A stretch of 43,673 nucleotides of DNA, taken from IMG/VR virus record IMGVR_UViG_3300025872_000099, positions 1 through 43,673 of that record; one strand, 5' to 3'. The notes under the pieces are model-generated. The model did not search any database. It saw only the letters and a program-made list of their open reading frames with translations, and was not told the origin of the DNA. Shown piece by piece: positions 7,423 to 25,973 of the stretch; position 1 is the first letter of the stretch; each line of letters opens with the position of its first letter. The position numbers were made by a program, and so were the translations under genes. The DNA is from a virus.

Positions 7423-7911
7423 ATGGATCCGTTAGACACGACTGGCGAGCTCGTTGAACCGCCTCCCGCTGATGAAGCTGCCGCGCCTGTTGTCGAGGGA
7501 TCCTCGACTGGTGCAAATCTCGTTGAAGTTGCTGATGCAAAATCGCAAACTATCGCGCTTGACAAGGATGGCGACAAGATTTACCCGAGCCTGTATGACA
7601 CAGTCCCAACAACATTCGGGGCAATCGTTCTCGGCGGTCTCATCATCGGCGGCATTCAGTGGATAGTGAAGAAGATCTTCGAGCGTGAAAAGAAGGAGCA
7701 CAAGGCTCTCACGCAGTTTGTCACTTCGATGTTTGCTTTCATCATTGGAGTTTGGATCGCTGACAAGATCATCGCGGGACCCACAGCTAACATTCTCGAC
7801 CCAGCTGAGAGCAAGGAACTTCTCACCTTCATCAAGGACATCACGCTGATGGTGTTCGCATACTACTTCGGAACAAAAGCGAACGTTCCAAAGGATGACG
7901 TCGATGGATAA
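7423..7911 (+). CDS. Three-pass membrane protein, possible holin-like
   Basis: 162 residues from ATG 7423 with AAGGAG upstream. A soluble acidic N-terminal half precedes three hydrophobic segments at about residues 64-84, 96-117 and 133-150, with the basic loop KKIFEREKKEHK between the first two. It leads a plus-strand cassette of three overlapping genes, all with membrane or coiled-coil features. The position and topology would fit a holin or other envelope factor, but no endolysin gene is evident next to it, so the name is tentative. Confidence 0.7.
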   Translation: MDPLDTTGELVEPPPADEAAAPVVEGSSTGANLVEVADAKSQTIALDKDGDKIYPSLYDTVPTTFGAIVLGGLIIGGIQWIVKKIFEREKKEHKALTQFVTSMFAFIIGVWIADKIIAGPTANILDPAESKELLTFIKDITLMVFAYYFGTKANVPKDDVDG

Positions 7912-8389
7912 CGCAGCAGACATCATTAGCGCCGCAGGAGGCGGCAACATCTGGGCCGTGCTCGGTCTCGCTATCTCAGGCGCCCTCGGCAAGTACGCTT
8001 GGGACTTCTACAAGAAAAAGGCTGACCTCAACTTCAAGGAGAAGGACAACCTCCGCAAGGACAGCAAGGAAGAGCGTCTCCTCGACCGCAAGGAGAAGAA
8101 CGAGTTCAAGGACGACCTGAAGGAGAGAGTGGCCGCTCTTGAAGTGAAGCTCGAGGCGGCATTGCAGGCGAAGGAGGACCTCCTCGAGCAGGTTGGAGAG
8201 CTGAAGGCGAAGCTCGCCAAGATCGAAACCAAGCTCGAGATCCTCCTCGCGGGCGGCAAGGTTGCGCCAGAGCCGCCCACAGACGAGAAGCCGAAACCCA
8301 GGGCAAAAGCGAAGGCCGCGCCTGCACCCACACCAGCTCCAGAGCCGACGCCCGCTCCGAAGCGTGGCCGAGCCAAGAAGAATGGCTGA
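7904..8389 (+). CDS. Membrane-anchored coiled-coil protein with Pro/Ala/Lys tail
   Basis: 161 residues. ATG 7904 is preferred to ATG 7895 because AAGGA lies 8 bases upstream of it. An N-terminal hydrophobic segment (about 14-30) is followed by a long charged coiled coil (about 40-125) and a Pro/Ala/Lys-rich tail (about 130-161) ending KRGRAKKNG. The layout, short anchor plus coiled coil, resembles i-spanin-type or scaffold-type proteins without matching a named family. It overlaps both neighbours by 8 bases. Confidence 0.7.
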   Translation: MDNAADIISAAGGGNIWAVLGLAISGALGKYAWDFYKKKADLNFKEKDNLRKDSKEERLLDRKEKNEFKDDLKERVAALEVKLEAALQAKEDLLEQVGELKAKLAKIETKLEILLAGGKVAPEPPTDEKPKPRAKAKAAPAPTPAPEPTPAPKRGRAKKNG

Positions 8390-9059
8390 TCCTTGTTTCA
8401 TCAAATCCGGTGAGATTGTCACAATAGACGACCCACGTTTAAGTGACACTGATTGCGTGATAGAGGCGGGCGTCATCATTCGTCCGCCCGCAGACGAGAC
8501 AACAGTCAAGGAAGTCGAGAAACATGTTGAGGAGAAGACAGAGGTCAAGGAGATAAAGCACACTGTCAAGAAGAGGGTGGAACTACCCTTAGAACCAGAG
8601 CCTCCTCCCGCTGTAGTTGAGACTCCTCCAGTCAAGACTGTTGTTACAAATCCGACAACAGTCTCTACAGCAGCAACAGCGGTTCCTGCCCCTGCTCCAA
8701 AGGAAGAAATTTACTTTGGGATGTCACCTGAAATGGCGACTGTTGCAGCAGTTGGCACAATCGCTGCAGTGGGTGGTGCGGTCGCAGCTTCAACGATGGG
8801 AGGTTTCAGTGCTGTTCAAGCAAAGCTCGCTTCGATCTTTGGTTCAAAAGCTGCTGCAACTGCTACAGCGGCGGTCGCAGTGACGGCGGGAACCATCGCC
8901 GCCGTGAAGGCCCTCGAGGGAAAGGTGGGCAAGTTCGAGGAGGACATGAAGAAGGCGAAGGAGGAGGTCGGTGGTGCAGCCTCTTCAATCGACCGGATCG
9001 ATGCCCTACTGAGCCGGCTTGGCGGCGACAACGACGACGAACTCGACCCTTCGGTTTAG
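8382..9059 (+). CDS. Hypothetical protein with Pro-rich linker and Ala-rich hydrophobic segments
   Basis: 225 residues from ATG 8382, which overlaps the stop of the preceding gene. The order is a short beta-type N domain (MADPCFIKSGEIVTIDD), a charged Lys/Glu/Val stretch, a Pro/Thr/Ala-rich linker (about 65-105) as seen in envelope-spanning proteins, two Ala-rich hydrophobic segments (about 114-135 and 147-170), and a short coiled coil. Its last 54 bases overlap the convergent TSP3/OmpA gene. Function unknown; it belongs to the same cassette as the two genes before it. Confidence 0.68.
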   Translation: MADPCFIKSGEIVTIDDPRLSDTDCVIEAGVIIRPPADETTVKEVEKHVEEKTEVKEIKHTVKKRVELPLEPEPPPAVVETPPVKTVVTNPTTVSTAATAVPAPAPKEEIYFGMSPEMATVAAVGTIAAVGGAVAASTMGGFSAVQAKLASIFGSKAAATATAAVAVTAGTIAAVKALEGKVGKFEEDMKKAKEEVGGAASSIDRIDALLSRLGGDNDDELDPSV

Positions 9060-12000
9060 GGCCTGCCCCTCGGGAGTCCCGGAGGTGTCGAGCGGTGCCG
9101 TGTCTCCCTTACCCTCGATGGAGATGCGCCCCGCATCGACACCCTTGCCGATGAGGTAGTCAGCAGCGACCTTCGCTCTTTCCCGTGAGAGTTCCTCAGG
9201 GTGCTTGAACTCCATTTCCGAGGAGTCCGCGTATCCGACGACCTTCACGCCGTATCCCGGTCGAAGATTAAGGACCGTCCAGACACCGTCGAGTGTCGCC
9301 CGGGCCTTAGTGTTGAGCTTCGTGTCGCCTGGAAGGAAACCGATTCCGACCTCCTGCTTCGGAGGTAAGGTGACATCAGGCTTCGCCGGGACTACTATCA
9401 CGATGGGCTGGAGCGGTTCTTCCTGAACCTTACACTCACATGCGGTCTGGGGCGAAACTTCGGGAGTAGCGTCTTCCTCTTCCTCATCTGAGGGACCGAA
9501 AGTAATCTGCATTGTTGCCTGCCAATCTCCATCGCCAGGTTGACGAATGACACCCTTGCTCAGTGCACCGCCAATCGAGAAGTTGCCGACAGTCCACTCC
9601 AGTGAAGACCCTATGAAGAGAGATGAGACAGGCGACTCTCCAAGGTTGTGAAACGCCTGCGAGTCTACTCCAATCGTGAAGTCGCCGACTGAATAAGATC
9701 CTGCCGCCGTGATGTAGGGCCCGGATCCAAGCTCGTATCCTTCGAGATCGACCTTCGGGTAGACCATGAAACCAGCCCCGAGGAGCCCCCCGACGTTACC
9801 GAACTGGGCCTCGGCTCCTGCTTCGAGTGTCGTTGCCCACCCAGGATGTGAGACACCGAGTCCTACTCCGGTGGGAGCAACCAACGACACATCGCCGTAG
9901 GCTCCCAGGCCATCGACACTGAAGGCTTTCGAGTTCACGCGGAGACCGCCCCAGACATCACCGAGGCGAACTACTCCATCGTTAGCGATGGATGCTGGCA
10001 CGCCGAAGTCGACAGAGAAGTGCTCGAAAGTGTAACGATTGGTCGTCCAGCCCCAGTAGACGTCATCGATGACCACGACCTCGTCACCCTGCGGGTTGAT
10101 GTAGGAGAGGGGATCGGTGACCACACCACCGACGATGGCAGTCTCATCTCCGAGGAACCTCGACTCACCCCTCGGTGGGAGGGGCACCACACTCATCTCG
10201 GGGACCTCACCCCCAGAAGCTCCCATCAGGAGCGGGAATCCGAGGAGGAAAGAGAAGAGGCCCCTCCGCCTTGAGGCGAGCACCGCGCCGAGGGTCATGA
10301 GAATGAGGCTTCCGCTTCCACCGCCGCCGGTCGTGGAGCAACCGCCGCCCGGGACATATGACCCCTTCGGAGCGGGATTCTCGTCCGTGTCATCGACCGG
10401 TGGGGCGCCAGTCTCGTCGGCACTATCAACGGCTGAATCGGAACCGGTATCGATCGAGGTATCGTGGCCACTGTCGCCCGTGTCGATCACCACACCGCTG
10501 TCACCAGAATCTCCTGTATCGATTGGCCTGTCATCGACAGGATCACATGCATCACCGACTCCGTCTCCATCAACGTCGGACTGGTCATTGGAGAGACCTG
10601 GACAGTTGTCGGTCACATCGTCAGCCCCGTCTCCGTCGGCGTCTGGATCGCAGATATCACCAAGACCGTCTCCGTCGATGTCTGCTTGGTCGGAGTTGAA
10701 GGCATCCGAGCAGTTGTCAGATAGACCGCAGAGCCCGTCCTCATCAGCGTCGTTTGTCGCATCATCCGGACAGGCATCGACATCACCACAGATTCCGTCG
10801 GCATCGATGTCGTTGTCAGCATCGAACTCGCATGGATCGGTGTCGGCACATGCTCCGTCACCATCGACATCGTCGCTTGGATCGAGCGGGCAGACGTCCA
10901 GTGATTCACAGGCTCCGTCGCCGTCCCGATCATCGAGGGAGTCATTGGGGCAGATGTCCTCGTCACCGCAGGTCCCGTCACCGTCGATGTCGTTCAGCTC
11001 ATCGAGCGGGCAGGTGTCACAGTCATCTGAGAGGCCGTCCTCGTCCGAATCTACCGTGTCATCAGCGCCCGGGCAGATATCTGCAGAATCGCAGGATCCG
11101 TCACCGTCGGAATCATCGGCTGAGTCCGCCGGGCAGGCATCGCAACCATTCGGGATGCCATCACTGTCAGTATCGAGTGTGTCATCAGCGCCCGGGCAGA
11201 TATCGTCGGAGTCGCATGAACCATCCGCATCACTGTCACCGAGTGCATCGAATGGGCAGGTGTCGCAACCGTCGGGGGTGTAGTCACCATCAGTGTCGAT
11301 GCGGTCATCTGAGCCGGGGCAGATGTCGTTCTCAGCACAGACGCCATCGGAATCGGAGTCATTGTCTGCGTCATACTTGCAGGCATCGCAACCATTCGGG
11401 ATGCCATCTGAGTCGGAATCCACCAGGTCACTGTAGCCCTCGCAGACATCCACATCTCCGCAGACTCCGTCACCGTCAGCGTCATCGTATGGGTCTGACG
11501 GGCAAGAGTCGCAGCCATCTGGCGTGTAATCAGCGTCCGCATCAGCGAGGTCATCGTATCCTTCGCAGGCATCAACATCACCGCAGACACCGTCGGCATC
11601 TGCGTCGTCATACGGATCGGATGGGCAGGAATCGGAGGAGTCTGGGATTCCGTCGCCGTCCGCATCCGGTTCAACAGGGGCTTCGGCGCAGTCCGTTGCA
11701 GCGGAGACCGCAGTCTCGTCAAGGGTGTAGATGACCCTGAATGTCTCGGACTGCCCAGGAGCCATATCACCGAGGCTCACCGCAAGCGAGATCGCCGCAT
11801 CATCGGAGACCGAAGATCCCACTGTGGAGTAGAATCCTGAGCCGTTCCAGATGTCCGAGGCATCGGTGTTGAAGAACCCACCATGGGTGACCCTTGCACG
11901 ACTGTCGGAGGCGATGAGGTAGAGATCCGCGCCATCTCCCCCGGTCGCCCTAACTGAGGCAAGATCGGTGGATGAGTCAGGTTGCGAGATGATGGTGTTC

Positions 12001-12587
12001 GTGGTCGAGTAGTCGTATGTCGTCATCACAGAGTTGTCAGGATCGACGTTCCTGAACCAGTAGACGTCCGACAGGGTCGATGAGCCGTTGTTGGTGAGGG
12101 TGACAGTCATCACGACGTAGACCTCGTCATTGACGACACCGTACTGGGTCTCTACCCCGAGGTCTCCCACCGCGCCGGTCCATGTCACCGCACCGCCGAG
12201 GTTTCCGCAGATATCGACCTCACATGCGGGGTCTCCGAGGGAGCCTGCGATGCCATTCGTCCAGCCGTTTGTGTTGTCGTATGCGACCCCGTTGAACTCA
12301 ACGCCCCAGCCCTCGAGAGGAGAGCCGGGTGAGAAGAAGTCACCGTAGTAGCTCGACCAGCCGTTCCGCTGCGGGTTCGCCACGAAACCGAGTTGGCCTG
12401 TGTTCGACCGGTAGTGCCATCCAGAAGGGTAACCGCCCTCTCCGAAAGCGCCCTCGGAGCCGATGCCGAACTCAACGTATTCGTTACGAATAAAAGCTGA
12501 TGAACCAGGATCATTGACTTCACAAAAACCTGATGCCTGGGCCAGCGTTGGCGTGAGGAACAAAAGTGATAGAAGTATTTTACGCAT
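9006..12587 (-). CDS. Giant secreted outer-membrane protein: TSP3 repeats, MYXO-CTERM-like segment, beta-barrel, OmpA domain
   Basis: 1193 residues from ATG 12587, beginning with a signal peptide (MRKILLSLLFLTPTLAQASG). An N-terminal beta-rich ectodomain (about 20-300) is followed by roughly 18 calcium-binding-type DxDxDG thrombospondin type-3 repeats with paired Cys (about 305-685), an Asp/Thr/Ser/Gly linker, then GGGCSTTGGGG plus a hydrophobic stretch and RRR (about 745-775) matching the MYXO-CTERM pattern. After that come a predicted barrel ending in MQITF, an acidic linker, and an OmpA-type peptidoglycan-binding domain (about 1079-1192; LSRERAKVAADYLIGKGVD, then NRRVEF). This is normally bacterial surface architecture. 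The 3' end overlaps a convergent gene by 54 bases. The in-frame fusion is discussed in the findings. Confidence 0.85.
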   Translation of the reverse strand: MRKILLSLLFLTPTLAQASGFCEVNDPGSSAFIRNEYVEFGIGSEGAFGEGGYPSGWHYRSNTGQLGFVANPQRNGWSSYYGDFFSPGSPLEGWGVEFNGVAYDNTNGWTNGIAGSLGDPACEVDICGNLGGAVTWTGAVGDLGVETQYGVVNDEVYVVMTVTLTNNGSSTLSDVYWFRNVDPDNSVMTTYDYSTTNTIISQPDSSTDLASVRATGGDGADLYLIASDSRARVTHGGFFNTDASDIWNGSGFYSTVGSSVSDDAAISLAVSLGDMAPGQSETFRVIYTLDETAVSAATDCAEAPVEPDADGDGIPDSSDSCPSDPYDDADADGVCGDVDACEGYDDLADADADYTPDGCDSCPSDPYDDADGDGVCGDVDVCEGYSDLVDSDSDGIPNGCDACKYDADNDSDSDGVCAENDICPGSDDRIDTDGDYTPDGCDTCPFDALGDSDADGSCDSDDICPGADDTLDTDSDGIPNGCDACPADSADDSDGDGSCDSADICPGADDTVDSDEDGLSDDCDTCPLDELNDIDGDGTCGDEDICPNDSLDDRDGDGACESLDVCPLDPSDDVDGDGACADTDPCEFDADNDIDADGICGDVDACPDDATNDADEDGLCGLSDNCSDAFNSDQADIDGDGLGDICDPDADGDGADDVTDNCPGLSNDQSDVDGDGVGDACDPVDDRPIDTGDSGDSGVVIDTGDSGHDTSIDTGSDSAVDSADETGAPPVDDTDENPAPKGSYVPGGGCSTTGGGGSGSLILMTLGAVLASRRRGLFSFLLGFPLLMGASGGEVPEMSVVPLPPRGESRFLGDETAIVGGVVTDPLSYINPQGDEVVVIDDVYWGWTTNRYTFEHFSVDFGVPASIANDGVVRLGDVWGGLRVNSKAFSVDGLGAYGDVSLVAPTGVGLGVSHPGWATTLEAGAEAQFGNVGGLLGAGFMVYPKVDLEGYELGSGPYITAAGSYSVGDFTIGVDSQAFHNLGESPVSSLFIGSSLEWTVGNFSIGGALSKGVIRQPGDGDWQATMQITFGPSDEEEEDATPEVSPQTACECKVQEEPLQPIVIVVPAKPDVTLPPKQEVGIGFLPGDTKLNTKARATLDGVWTVLNLRPGYGVKVVGYADSSEMEFKHPEELSRERAKVAADYLIGKGVDAGRISIEGKGDTAPLDTSGTPEGQALNRRVEFVVVVAAKPAQ
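10262..10352 (-). other. MYXO-CTERM-like sorting segment inside the giant protein
   Basis: Encodes Gly-Gly-Gly-Cys, a Gly/Ser spacer, a hydrophobic helix (LILMTLGAVLA) and SRRRG. This is the tripartite pattern of Myxococcota C-terminal sorting signals (Cys, helix, Arg cluster), but it is followed in frame by another 420 residues. MTLGAVLASRRRGLFSFLLG could also act as the signal peptide of the downstream barrel/OmpA part. Confidence 0.55.
10530..11670 (-). repeat. Tandem thrombospondin type-3 coding repeats
   Basis: About 18 imperfect units, mostly 60-80 bases, encoding D-x-D-x-D-G-x-C and C-P/C-D pairs. On the plus strand they show as recurrent CCGTCACCGTC and CATCG runs. Protein repeats of this type bind calcium and stiffen surface proteins. 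Confidence 0.8.
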
Positions 12588-23576: not shown

Positions 23577-24563
23577 TTAGTATCTATCAACCTCTTGAGA
23601 GCGAGCCAACGCAATCTCGAGGTCATTGGCCACCTTCTGGGCGACGTACTTGTCGACGTGTGGACAGGACCTGATCGCATCGATCGCCTGCTGGGCAATG
23701 GGCACTATCATCGTGACACTGTAACCCGGCCTCTCCCGACCCTTCTCGATCATCTCCATCGCCTCGAACGCTAAGACTCGAGCGTCAGAGTCCTCTGGAC
23801 AGCCCGCTTCCTCGAGATCCATGTCCGCAGTCTCAAGGGCAGTGATGAACTCTGTCGTCTGGAGCTGCTCGAGGTCCCTCCCGGCGACCATCTCACCGGC
23901 TTCGGAAATGGAGCGTCTCCGACGCCGAGACTCGACTGTCCCCCTCGAATCGAGTATCGTGAGGACGCGACCCGTCGTCATCTTACCCCGAGCCCAGTCC
24001 TCGAACACTTTCCTGAAGAGGTACCGCTGCTCGTCAAGCTCTCTCTTCCAGATGTCCTTTGTCTCGGGTGAGAGGGTCCTCTCAAGCTCGTCAAGCTTCC
24101 CGAGGACCTTACTCTTCAGGTTCTCGAAAGCCTTTCCGATAGGGTGGTTCGGGTCACGAGCGTAGTCAGAGCCAGGGTCCATGCTCGCATGACTCCTCTG
24201 CGCCTGCTTGTAGTTCTCCCAGACCATCCGGTACTCTGGGAGAGTGTGAAGCATACCGAAGAAAGAGTGATAACGATCGATGATCTTGTCGTCGCCTGTC
24301 CTCTCAAGACGCTGCGTTGTCGTGGGACCGAACATATCAGCAAGAACAGTCATCAGGCCTTTAATGGCATTACCCGACATCGTCGCATGGATGAGACCCC
24401 ACTCCCGAATGAGCTCTCTCCTGATGATTGAGCGCAGCGCGGCCTCACCGATATCGAGAGTCTTTGGGTAGCCCTTTTCTCCCGGACGAGCCGGACGCTC
24501 TCCGCGCTTTCTTTTAGCGCGGATGTTGTGCCAGAGTCCCTTATTTTTCTTTGCTTCGTTCAT
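23577..24563 (-). CDS. Tagged phage protein with KGLW-NI-KRKRG motif
   Basis: 328 residues from ATG 24563, which overlaps the stop of the HAD gene (ATGA). It starts with a basic segment KNKGLWHNIRAKRKRGERPARPGEKGYPKT, a motif I recall from many phage proteins, where it precedes unrelated domains. At about residues 45-58 it carries the tag RSIIRRELIREW. The rest is helical and charged. No enzyme motif is evident. The combination suggests a protein packaged in or associated with the capsid. Confidence 0.72.
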   Translation of the reverse strand: MNEAKKNKGLWHNIRAKRKRGERPARPGEKGYPKTLDIGEAALRSIIRRELIREWGLIHATMSGNAIKGLMTVLADMFGPTTTQRLERTGDDKIIDRYHSFFGMLHTLPEYRMVWENYKQAQRSHASMDPGSDYARDPNHPIGKAFENLKSKVLGKLDELERTLSPETKDIWKRELDEQRYLFRKVFEDWARGKMTTGRVLTILDSRGTVESRRRRRSISEAGEMVAGRDLEQLQTTEFITALETADMDLEEAGCPEDSDARVLAFEAMEMIEKGRERPGYSVTMIVPIAQQAIDAIRSCPHVDKYVAQKVANDLEIALARSQEVDRY

Positions 24564-25501
24564 CTCTTTATCCCCGCGAGGTAGCTCCACCTCTCCATGA
24601 TCATGTCGTCCTCGAGTCTTCTGTTTTCAGAAATTCCACGAGGGTCAAGGTCCTCATCGGAGCCCTCATATGACTTGTTCGGAAACTCTGGGCTCGCTTC
24701 ATCGTGAGCAAACTCACCAGGACCGTAGATGTGAAGTTCCGAAGGTACCTTCGATGCCACCGCGGCTTCGACCTCTTTCGTGTTCTTTTCCAGGTCGTCG
24801 TAGAAATGGACTTCTTCAGGAGAGCCGCCGGGTTCACTCAAGTACTTCTTGATGATTGCGATACCCTTGTTCTGACCAGTGACCCCCATCACCCCGTCAG
24901 TGGGTTTTGCTCCCAGTCTCGAAAGAAACTGCTCCATGTCCTGGGAGTTAGTGGCGGGCACGGGATTTCCGTGAAAGTCGGTGCCGACACCGTCAGCCTT
25001 CCTCGCAGTGATGACTATCGTGTCAGACCCCTGGGCGTTTGCTCGTCTCAGCTTGTTGACAGTCGGCTCGATGGGCTGGGTGTTTTCCGTGTCGGTGCCC
25101 GATGAAGGAGTGAAGTCGATGAGTATCGTCTCTCCTGGCTGGTTGACCTTGTCCGCGAAACCTGTGGTCACTCCCTGTTTGGCAGGCGGGAAAGCTTTCT
25201 GGACCCTGCCCAGGCCGGACGAGTTGAGGTACACCGCCATCCCGTTTTCTCTCTCAGGGATCGGTACGATACCTGGTGGGAGGATTGCGCTCATGGGGAC
25301 CCCGAGGGAAGAGAGCCACTGCTTGACATCGGCTTCTGTCTTGTGAGCGGGAGAACCGTCATTGTAGAGCATCACGCCGTTCGCGTTGACCGTGAGACCG
25401 AGAGTGTCGTCAAAGTCGAAGACATGCACCTGCTTGTCAGGCGGTGCGTCTCCCGGTATTGCGTCCTCGAAGAGGATGTCTACAAGCTTCCTGCGTTTCA
25501 T
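24560..25501 (-). CDS. HAD superfamily phosphatase-like protein
   Basis: 313 residues from ATG 25501. HAD motif I is VFDFDDTL (Asp29, Asp31); motif II is IVITARK; QNKG supplies the motif III Lys; and HFYDDLEKN is motif IV. Members hydrolyse phosphate esters; phage versions often act on nucleotides or polynucleotide 3' or 5' ends. The N terminus MKRRKLVDILFED resembles the tag or cleavage-site peptide on other proteins here, and the C terminus ends MERWSYLAGIKR. It overlaps the pilin-like gene by 4 bases. Confidence 0.8.
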   Translation of the reverse strand: MKRRKLVDILFEDAIPGDAPPDKQVHVFDFDDTLGLTVNANGVMLYNDGSPAHKTEADVKQWLSSLGVPMSAILPPGIVPIPERENGMAVYLNSSGLGRVQKAFPPAKQGVTTGFADKVNQPGETILIDFTPSSGTDTENTQPIEPTVNKLRRANAQGSDTIVITARKADGVGTDFHGNPVPATNSQDMEQFLSRLGAKPTDGVMGVTGQNKGIAIIKKYLSEPGGSPEEVHFYDDLEKNTKEVEAAVASKVPSELHIYGPGEFAHDEASPEFPNKSYEGSDEDLDPRGISENRRLEDDMIMERWSYLAGIKR

Positions 25502-25710
25502 CTTGTCGTTCCCACTCTTCCGATCTTGCCGTCGGAAAGGATCTTCTTCACATCGTTCGCCAAGTCCTGCACTCCCTGCTTGAAGGGATCGATGAATACA
25601 TATGCAGCTGCGACGATCGCGATGACAATCACGCTGATGAGGAGCATGTACTCTACAGTTGACTGACCCTCTTCCTCGCGGAGAAGCTGCTTTGCTGTCT
25701 GCAAAAACAT
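25498..25710 (-). CDS. Flp/type IVb pilin-like protein
   Basis: 70 residues from ATG 25710. After a short basic leader comes EEEG/QSTVEYMLLISVIVIAIVAAA, the classic prepilin cleavage site (Gly before Gln) with Glu at +5 and Tyr at +6 of the mature form, typical of Flp-like pilins and TadE-related proteins. A C-terminal helix of about 30 residues follows. No prepilin peptidase or Tad machinery is in the window, so it would depend on host factors. Unusual cargo for a phage. Confidence 0.7.
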   Translation of the reverse strand: MFLQTAKQLLREEEGQSTVEYMLLISVIVIAIVAAAYVFIDPFKQGVQDLANDVKKILSDGKIGRVGTTR

Positions 25711-25973
25711 CACTTCACTTCGTCGGTTGACTGGTCAATCTCTTCGTTCCAGTCTGTTCGAAGCTTGATGAGAGGGTTGAAGTTCGCCTTCTTCCTCTCG
25801 AGAACAAGAGCAGACTGCGGCTTTTGCAGGACGCCCTCGATCTCCAGGCCCTCAAAGTCAATCTCAGTCTTCTGCTTGTAAGTGATCTTACGGTCTTCCT
25901 CTTCGTCACCGGCTGAAGCGTGACCGGGCAGAAGAGTCATAGAGAGGATGAGCGCTAGCTTCAAGTACTTCAT
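25710..25973 (-). CDS. Small secreted protein
   Basis: 87 residues from ATG 25973, which overlaps the preceding stop (ATGA). Signal peptide MKYLKLALILSMTLLPGHASA, then an acidic region and a conserved-looking core (KTEIDFEGLEIEGVLQKP; FNPLIKLRTDWNEEI). I recall similar short proteins from Myxococcota and Bdellovibrionota, but cannot name a family with certainty. It is adjacent to the pilin-like gene, which suggests a joint envelope function. Confidence 0.65.
   Translation of the reverse strand: MKYLKLALILSMTLLPGHASAGDEEEDRKITYKQKTEIDFEGLEIEGVLQKPQSALVLERKKANFNPLIKLRTDWNEEIDQSTDEVK

Follow-up and report, generated by a model that had tools for sequence, protein, structure and literature searches.

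The window analysed here, a virus record of 43,673 bases taken as a whole, encodes a giant protein of 1193 amino acid residues which we interpret, with moderate confidence, as a phage-encoded host-surface polyprotein of the MXAN_5598/TraA plus TraB kind, which would yield an adhesin displayed on the surface and a barrel anchored to the wall. This protein probably lets the virus remodel the surface of its host, a myxobacterium-like cell. This interpretation draws on the domains, their order, their conservation, the selection acting upon them and the arrangement as two genes in a related phage. The original prediction had treated the domain order as a peculiarity of the phage, a view that is not supported: MXAN_5598 is described as having this order in bacteria (PMC11980579), which at the level of architecture is the finding that the prediction itself had named as refuting. 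What is new is its occurrence in viruses: a group of T4-like phages has conserved it, alongside a gene for a CglF-like gliding-motility protein.

The giant gene is encoded by the minus strand, a point on which the original prediction was silent, and runs from an ATG at 12587 to a stop codon ending at 9006; the reading frame has no internal stops and contains no DNA tandem repeat. From the N-terminus the order is signal peptide, head, TSP3 stalk, linker, MYXO-CTERM tag, second hydrophobic stretch, barrel-like region and OmpA domain, as follows:

9006..12587, minus strand: giant gene for the fused surface protein, 1193 aa (open reading frame; full-length relatives)
12531..12587, minus strand: N-terminal signal peptide, residues 1-19 (hydrophobic peak at residue 4; A-x-A with the predicted cut before SG)
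11673..12530, minus strand: head, residues 20-305, a galactose-mutarotase-like super-β-sandwich (AlphaFold, Foldseek)
10530..11672, minus strand: TSP3 stalk, residues 306-686 (Pfam TSP_3, MtsC model match, motif count)
10368..10529, minus strand: D/T/S-rich low-complexity linker, residues 687-740 (sequence)
10263..10349, minus strand: MYXO-CTERM tag, GGGCSTTGG, TM helix and RRR, residues 747-775 (TIGR03901, above cut-off)
10215..10262, minus strand: second signal-peptide-like segment, residues 776-791 (hydrophobic peak after RRR)
10149..10214, minus strand: near-invariant GGEVPEMSVVPLPPRG, residues 792-813, putative new N-terminus (allele identity)
9492..10148, minus strand: β-barrel-like region, residues 814-1032, about 12 strands (low-confidence model; Foldseek match to FapF)
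9051..9338, minus strand: OmpA peptidoglycan-binding domain, residues 1084-1179 (Pfam PF00691)

A signal peptide of the same type, called by eye and from hydropathy without a predictor, opens the protein in all alleles. The head, of 286 residues, is modelled by AlphaFold with a pLDDT of 90.2, and Foldseek places it among super-β-sandwiches of the galactose-mutarotase type (GH94, GH116 and YidC domains; E down to 3e-7, TMq about 0.5). This fold is often seen in sugar-acting proteins. A further phage protein with the same fold, labelled FN3, is found in BFVD (TMq 0.85). Bacterial surface proteins share the head at 34-44% identity, chiefly in many Bacteroidota and in a few other bacteria including Thiothrix, but their tails differ: in most examples the head is N-terminal behind a signal peptide, and among those inspected the tail is mostly T9SS or another surface module, with none bearing MYXO-CTERM, barrel and OmpA. 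A scan of 84,980 species genomes, which relied on two short motifs and can therefore miss relatives, revealed 94 relatives of the head, from which 78 loci were kept; none is titled Myxococcota and the closest is about 43% identical, over the head only.

The reading of TSP3, MYXO-CTERM-like and OmpA domains in the original prediction is borne out by Pfam and TIGR03901. The stalk, of the Ca-binding type and differing in length from allele to allele, matches TSP_3 (Pfam, E 2.2e-7) and contains D-x-D-x-D motifs and 34 Cys residues by motif count; the OmpA domain matches PF00691 in a Pfam search (residues 1084-1179, E 8.8e-15). The predicted barrel is supported by about 12 long strands in the secondary structure and by a low-confidence model (pLDDT 49.5), for which the best PDB match in Foldseek is the barrel protein FapF. 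The linker at residues 687-740 and a second, variable linker between the barrel-like region and OmpA are among the fastest-evolving regions.

The TIGR03901 model gives 24.5 bits for the tag segment alone and 21.4 bits with flanks, against a curated cut-off of 20; with longer query segments the per-protein score falls to 18.3, just below that cut-off. When whole related viral records were searched, five of the six gave one match each, all above the cut-off and all at the giant-gene junction. Like myxosortase substrates, the protein has an N-terminal signal peptide and the signature motif (Cys, TM helix, Arg-rich end), but the tag is internal and is followed by 418 residues, whereas such substrates normally carry it at the extreme C-terminus. 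The internal tag, the second signal-like stretch and the barrel-like/OmpA unit are all present in the order first proposed, with a second hydrophobic peak (residues 776-788, KD 2.0) that follows RRR and runs into LLMGASGGE.

Full-length relatives in IMG/VR are 92% (L002/L003), 77% (L004) and 69% (L009/L010) identical in amino acid sequence, with 64% for the barrel part of the last pair. Four distinct alleles in IMG/VR contigs thus have one domain order and one junction, in which the Cys of GCSTTGG, the STTGG, the RRR, LLMGASGGEVPEM and LLMGASGGE are invariant. Residues 790-813 are 100% identical to L002 and L004 and 88% to L009. Over the junction as a whole (residues 741-813), identity is 90% (L002/L003), 88% (L004) and 69% (L009/L010), with dS of 0.25, 1.35 and 2.63 and dN/dS of 0.18, 0.06 and 0.13, respectively, indicating purifying selection. 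Continuity across 10260-10360 had been a concern of the original prediction; a frameshift or assembly chimera there is ruled out because the same uninterrupted junction is shared by all four alleles (the window, L002/L003, L004 and L009/L010). Translation from an internal start, giving the barrel as a protein of its own complete with signal, was likewise rejected: the codon at which such a product would have to start in order to include the second signal segment is ATG in the window, GTG in L002 and GTT in L004. With no conserved internal start retaining that segment, synthesis as one polypeptide is the most economical interpretation. An ATG at residue 798 is conserved and GG-rich upstream, and a product begun there would be without a signal peptide.

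These contigs are taken to be tailed phages because T4-like genes for sheath, terminase, major head protein and portal are present in one of them, the 132-kb contig of L010. The window, L002 and L004 have many genes in common with this contig and with each other, and the window itself carries phage ligase, topoisomerase II subunit, methyltransferase and tail-fiber genes. Two further features of the group were observed. Adjacent SAM synthetase-like and S-adenosylhomocysteine hydrolase-like genes, identified by sequence, are found at L004:893-3600 and L009:11932-14690, the latter gene being 93% identical between the two and having no match in the window. A lipoprotein-like protein of 382 aa with HYDIN/VesB-like Ig and PKD domains (L112:263-1408, minus strand, equal to G004 100260-101408) is 80% identical in the L002 phage and represents another envelope-type protein of the group.

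Proteins of this kind are rare in phages, as was first supposed: no full-length match was found in 50,697 phage records, matches in the phage and plasmid collections are limited to the OmpA domain or the head domain, and the head is present in six IMG/VR contigs. It is hardly credible that the gene is recent host cargo without phage function, or that the contig is a mis-binned host sequence; the head and tags are indeed common in bacterial surface proteins, but the gene is kept down to 69% amino acid identity across distinct phage contigs under strong purifying selection, in synteny with phage genes and, in the 132-kb contig, alongside T4-like genes for sheath, terminase, capsid and portal.

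A 13-kb contig (L094), which also encodes an M15 peptidase and a terminase of the GpA type, has a two-gene layout at the corresponding place. Its head, 68% identical to that of the giant protein, stands on a TSP3/MopE-type stalk ending in GGCSCDTS..MPRRR and a stop, a MYXO-CTERM-like end recognized by eye and not by the TIGR03901 model. This tag-bearing gene overlaps a separate gene of 352 aa via TGATG, and the arrangement recurs in L096, from a second metagenome, at 95.8% nucleotide identity. The product of the second gene is β-rich by eye, its end resembles an OmpA helix and its start has no evident signal peptide; comparison with the fused barrel gave no significant similarity (hhalign P 0.12, BLAST E >0.4), for which reason the relation between split and fused forms rests on position and layout. 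In position the two layouts are equivalent. The suggestion that two ancestral genes were fused in frame fits this two-gene layout, and fusion has also been proposed for MXAN_5598 (PMC11980579). Around the TGATG junction (L094:5880-6100, L096:560-720), about 143 bases are identical against 4.2% divergence overall; special constraint was considered but is not claimed, the chance of such a longest gap being about 0.16 by our own estimate. A signal-like MGQLFPFSLWRA that terminates at TAG can be read at this junction in the +1 frame.

Two bacterial systems offer parallels. MXAN_5598 of M. xanthus has an adhesin region, an internal MYXO-CTERM, a barrel and OmpA in one open reading frame, and was proposed to be a processed fusion of two genes and likened to TraA plus TraB (Guo et al. 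2025, PMC11980579); it has been found in outer membrane vesicles (PMC4158809). The same study describes MYXO-CTERM throughout Myxococcota, regards internal tags as rare cases and notes that C-terminal sorting tags can act mid-protein (PMC11980579). The giant protein has this fused order in one reading frame, compared by published architecture only and with the barrel assigned from the low-confidence model. MXAN_5598 is chromosomal and adjoins ftsA/ftsZ, whereas the giant gene is found in T4-like phages near lysis-type genes. In the second system, the traA and traB genes share four bases, MYXO-CTERM stands at the end of TraA, and OmpA is part of TraB (PMC3325183); TraB begins with a signal peptide and has TSP3 repeats placed between its barrel and its OmpA domain, and the two proteins act 1:1 (PMC12045341). 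The likeness is that of a stalked receptor with MYXO-CTERM, followed by a partner that has a signal peptide, a barrel and OmpA, although TraA and TraB are products of two overlapping genes and the giant gene is a single reading frame. TraA possesses a PA14-like variable head and a Cys-rich TIGR04201 stalk, neither of them among the Pfam/NCBIfam matches listed for the giant protein, which has a mutarotase-like head and a TSP3 stalk. Against the TraB equivalog NF033763 (cut-off 700 bits) the giant protein scores 30.1 bits, in the OmpA part only, and a TraB search of the related viral records gave one match, again to the OmpA part only. The MtsC cell-cell cohesion equivalog NF047638 (350 bits) gives 69.7 bits, confined to the TSP3 part.

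On the polyprotein reading, we infer export, both cuts, surface display, a Myxococcota host and a purpose. The N-terminal signal peptide would export the head and TSP3 stalk until the MYXO-CTERM helix halts in the inner membrane with RRR on the cytoplasmic side. The second hydrophobic segment would then re-enter the membrane as a second signal peptide and export the barrel-OmpA part, so that a single chain would form a hairpin with two passes through the inner membrane and RRR inside. Host myxosortase would presumably cleave at the invariant Cys, with the head-stalk shown on the surface, and signal peptidase behind the second segment, after which the barrel would enter the outer membrane and OmpA would tie it to the wall. 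Because both come from one polyprotein, the two products would be made 1:1 and would probably work jointly, forming in the infected cell a wall-anchored base that carries the adhesin on its stalk. The most likely purpose would be to stick the cell to its neighbors, aiding spread, or to mask its receptors. By analogy we favor adhesion, since overexpression of TraAB makes cells adhere (PMC3325183) and a head and stalk would be superfluous for lysis; exclusion and lysis are also in play, the latter because lysis-type genes are close by.

The surroundings of the giant gene, together with two genes elsewhere in the window, are as follows:

7423..9059, plus strand: convergent neighbors of the giant gene, kept near it in relatives (synteny)
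7423-7911, plus strand: neighbor, 162-aa TM protein
7895-8389, plus strand: neighbor, 164-aa TM and coiled-coil protein
to 9059, plus strand: neighbor, TM protein
25710..25973, minus strand: CglF-like (gliding motility) protein, 87 aa, with signal peptide (NF033764)
25498-25713, minus strand: pilin-like protein, 71 aa, with class III/Flp1-like signal EEGQSTVEYMLLISVIVIAIV (weak Pfam match, E 0.004-0.006)

The TM and coiled-coil genes remain close to the giant gene across fused-type contigs, which lends something to the view that it is lysis machinery, a late envelope protein with an outer-membrane barrel, a wall-binding OmpA domain and a lipid-anchored stalk that, with inner-membrane coiled-coil proteins, breaks or loosens the outer membrane after the endolysin, as an outer-membrane spanin does. 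In L004 an endolysin-like gene (phrog_33083) and a holin-like TM gene immediately precede it, and in L094 its counterpart follows the M15 peptidase and an Rz-like spanin match. The holin and spanin matches are weak, however, and no endolysin relative was found beside the gene in the window. Known o-spanins are small lipoproteins; the giant protein, at 1193 aa, matches no spanin family and has the form of neither a small lipoprotein nor a unimolecular spanin, and a 300-aa head on a variable 380-aa stalk would be unneeded. We consider a lysis role rather unlikely.

Superinfection exclusion, in which the displayed head-stalk masks or occupies receptors of the infected cell, overlaps with the polyprotein-adhesin reading and agrees with the predicted surface location, and large phages are thought to change host surfaces against competitors (PMC7824862). 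Receptor and prophage context are both missing, and masking would not need the barrel-OmpA half, so that exclusion as such appears unlikely. Given the proximity of lysis genes and the TraAB parallel, lysis or adhesion is at least as open as the superinfection block first suggested. Decidedly unlikely, in our estimation, is a bolder form of adhesion, in which a fused TraAB-like adhesin/fusogen binds infected cells to their neighbors and perhaps joins outer membranes, infection passing by contact, with the CglF-like and pilin-like genes as parts of the same host-contact program. A virion fiber or decoration would suit the phage neighbors, the frequency of β-sandwich heads in fibers and the FN3-labelled phage protein sharing the fold, but the signal peptide, MYXO-CTERM, barrel and OmpA all point to the envelope, and in the 132-kb contig the structural genes are at a distance from the gene; a virion role is very improbable.

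The polyprotein reading places the phages in a myxobacterium-like host, and the MYXO-CTERM tag together with the CglF-like genes makes Myxococcota the likely host, judged from sequence. The CglF-like protein matches NF033764 with E 2.3e-15, below the equivalog cut-off. Such genes also occur in three related records (G004, G005 and G007), and in the 132-kb contig one lies directly upstream of the giant gene; a search of five other bacteria and 14 controls gave no match, there being no positive anywhere in that run. The pilin-like gene overlaps the CglF-like gene by a few bases and is more than 80% conserved between phages. Nearby, the window encodes a protein of 313 aa (24560-25501, minus strand) with a DUF2608 (HAD-like) match and the start LVDILFEDA, which in the 132-kb contig is fused with its neighbor into a 642-aa reading frame.

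The head is also found in a 642-kb uncultured phage (LR756502.1). Like the giant protein, that phage-encoded protein has a signal peptide, the same head and a host sorting domain at its end; it differs in having a T9SS type B/CHU_C tail in place of MYXO-CTERM and in the absence of barrel and OmpA. At this locus (409850-422602) the gene adjoins many short genes starting MKHLKK.NES. The T9SS type B sorting domain at the end of the protein suggests that phages use the head as surface cargo in different hosts.

Among the papers searched, those that mention both MYXO-CTERM and phage concern the bacteria, judging by title and abstract, and none links MYXO-CTERM with viral metagenomes. If the polyprotein reading is true, this would be the first phage protein known to us that uses the myxobacterial surface-sorting pathway. 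It would also offer a natural internal-tag substrate for the question, raised by MXAN_5598, of whether myxosortase works mid-protein. The finding points to little-known T4-like phages of Myxococcota bearing relatives of host contact and motility genes, and unrelated phages pair one head with host sorting tails of different kinds (MYXO-CTERM and T9SS), which suggests a common viral strategy of dressing the infected cell.
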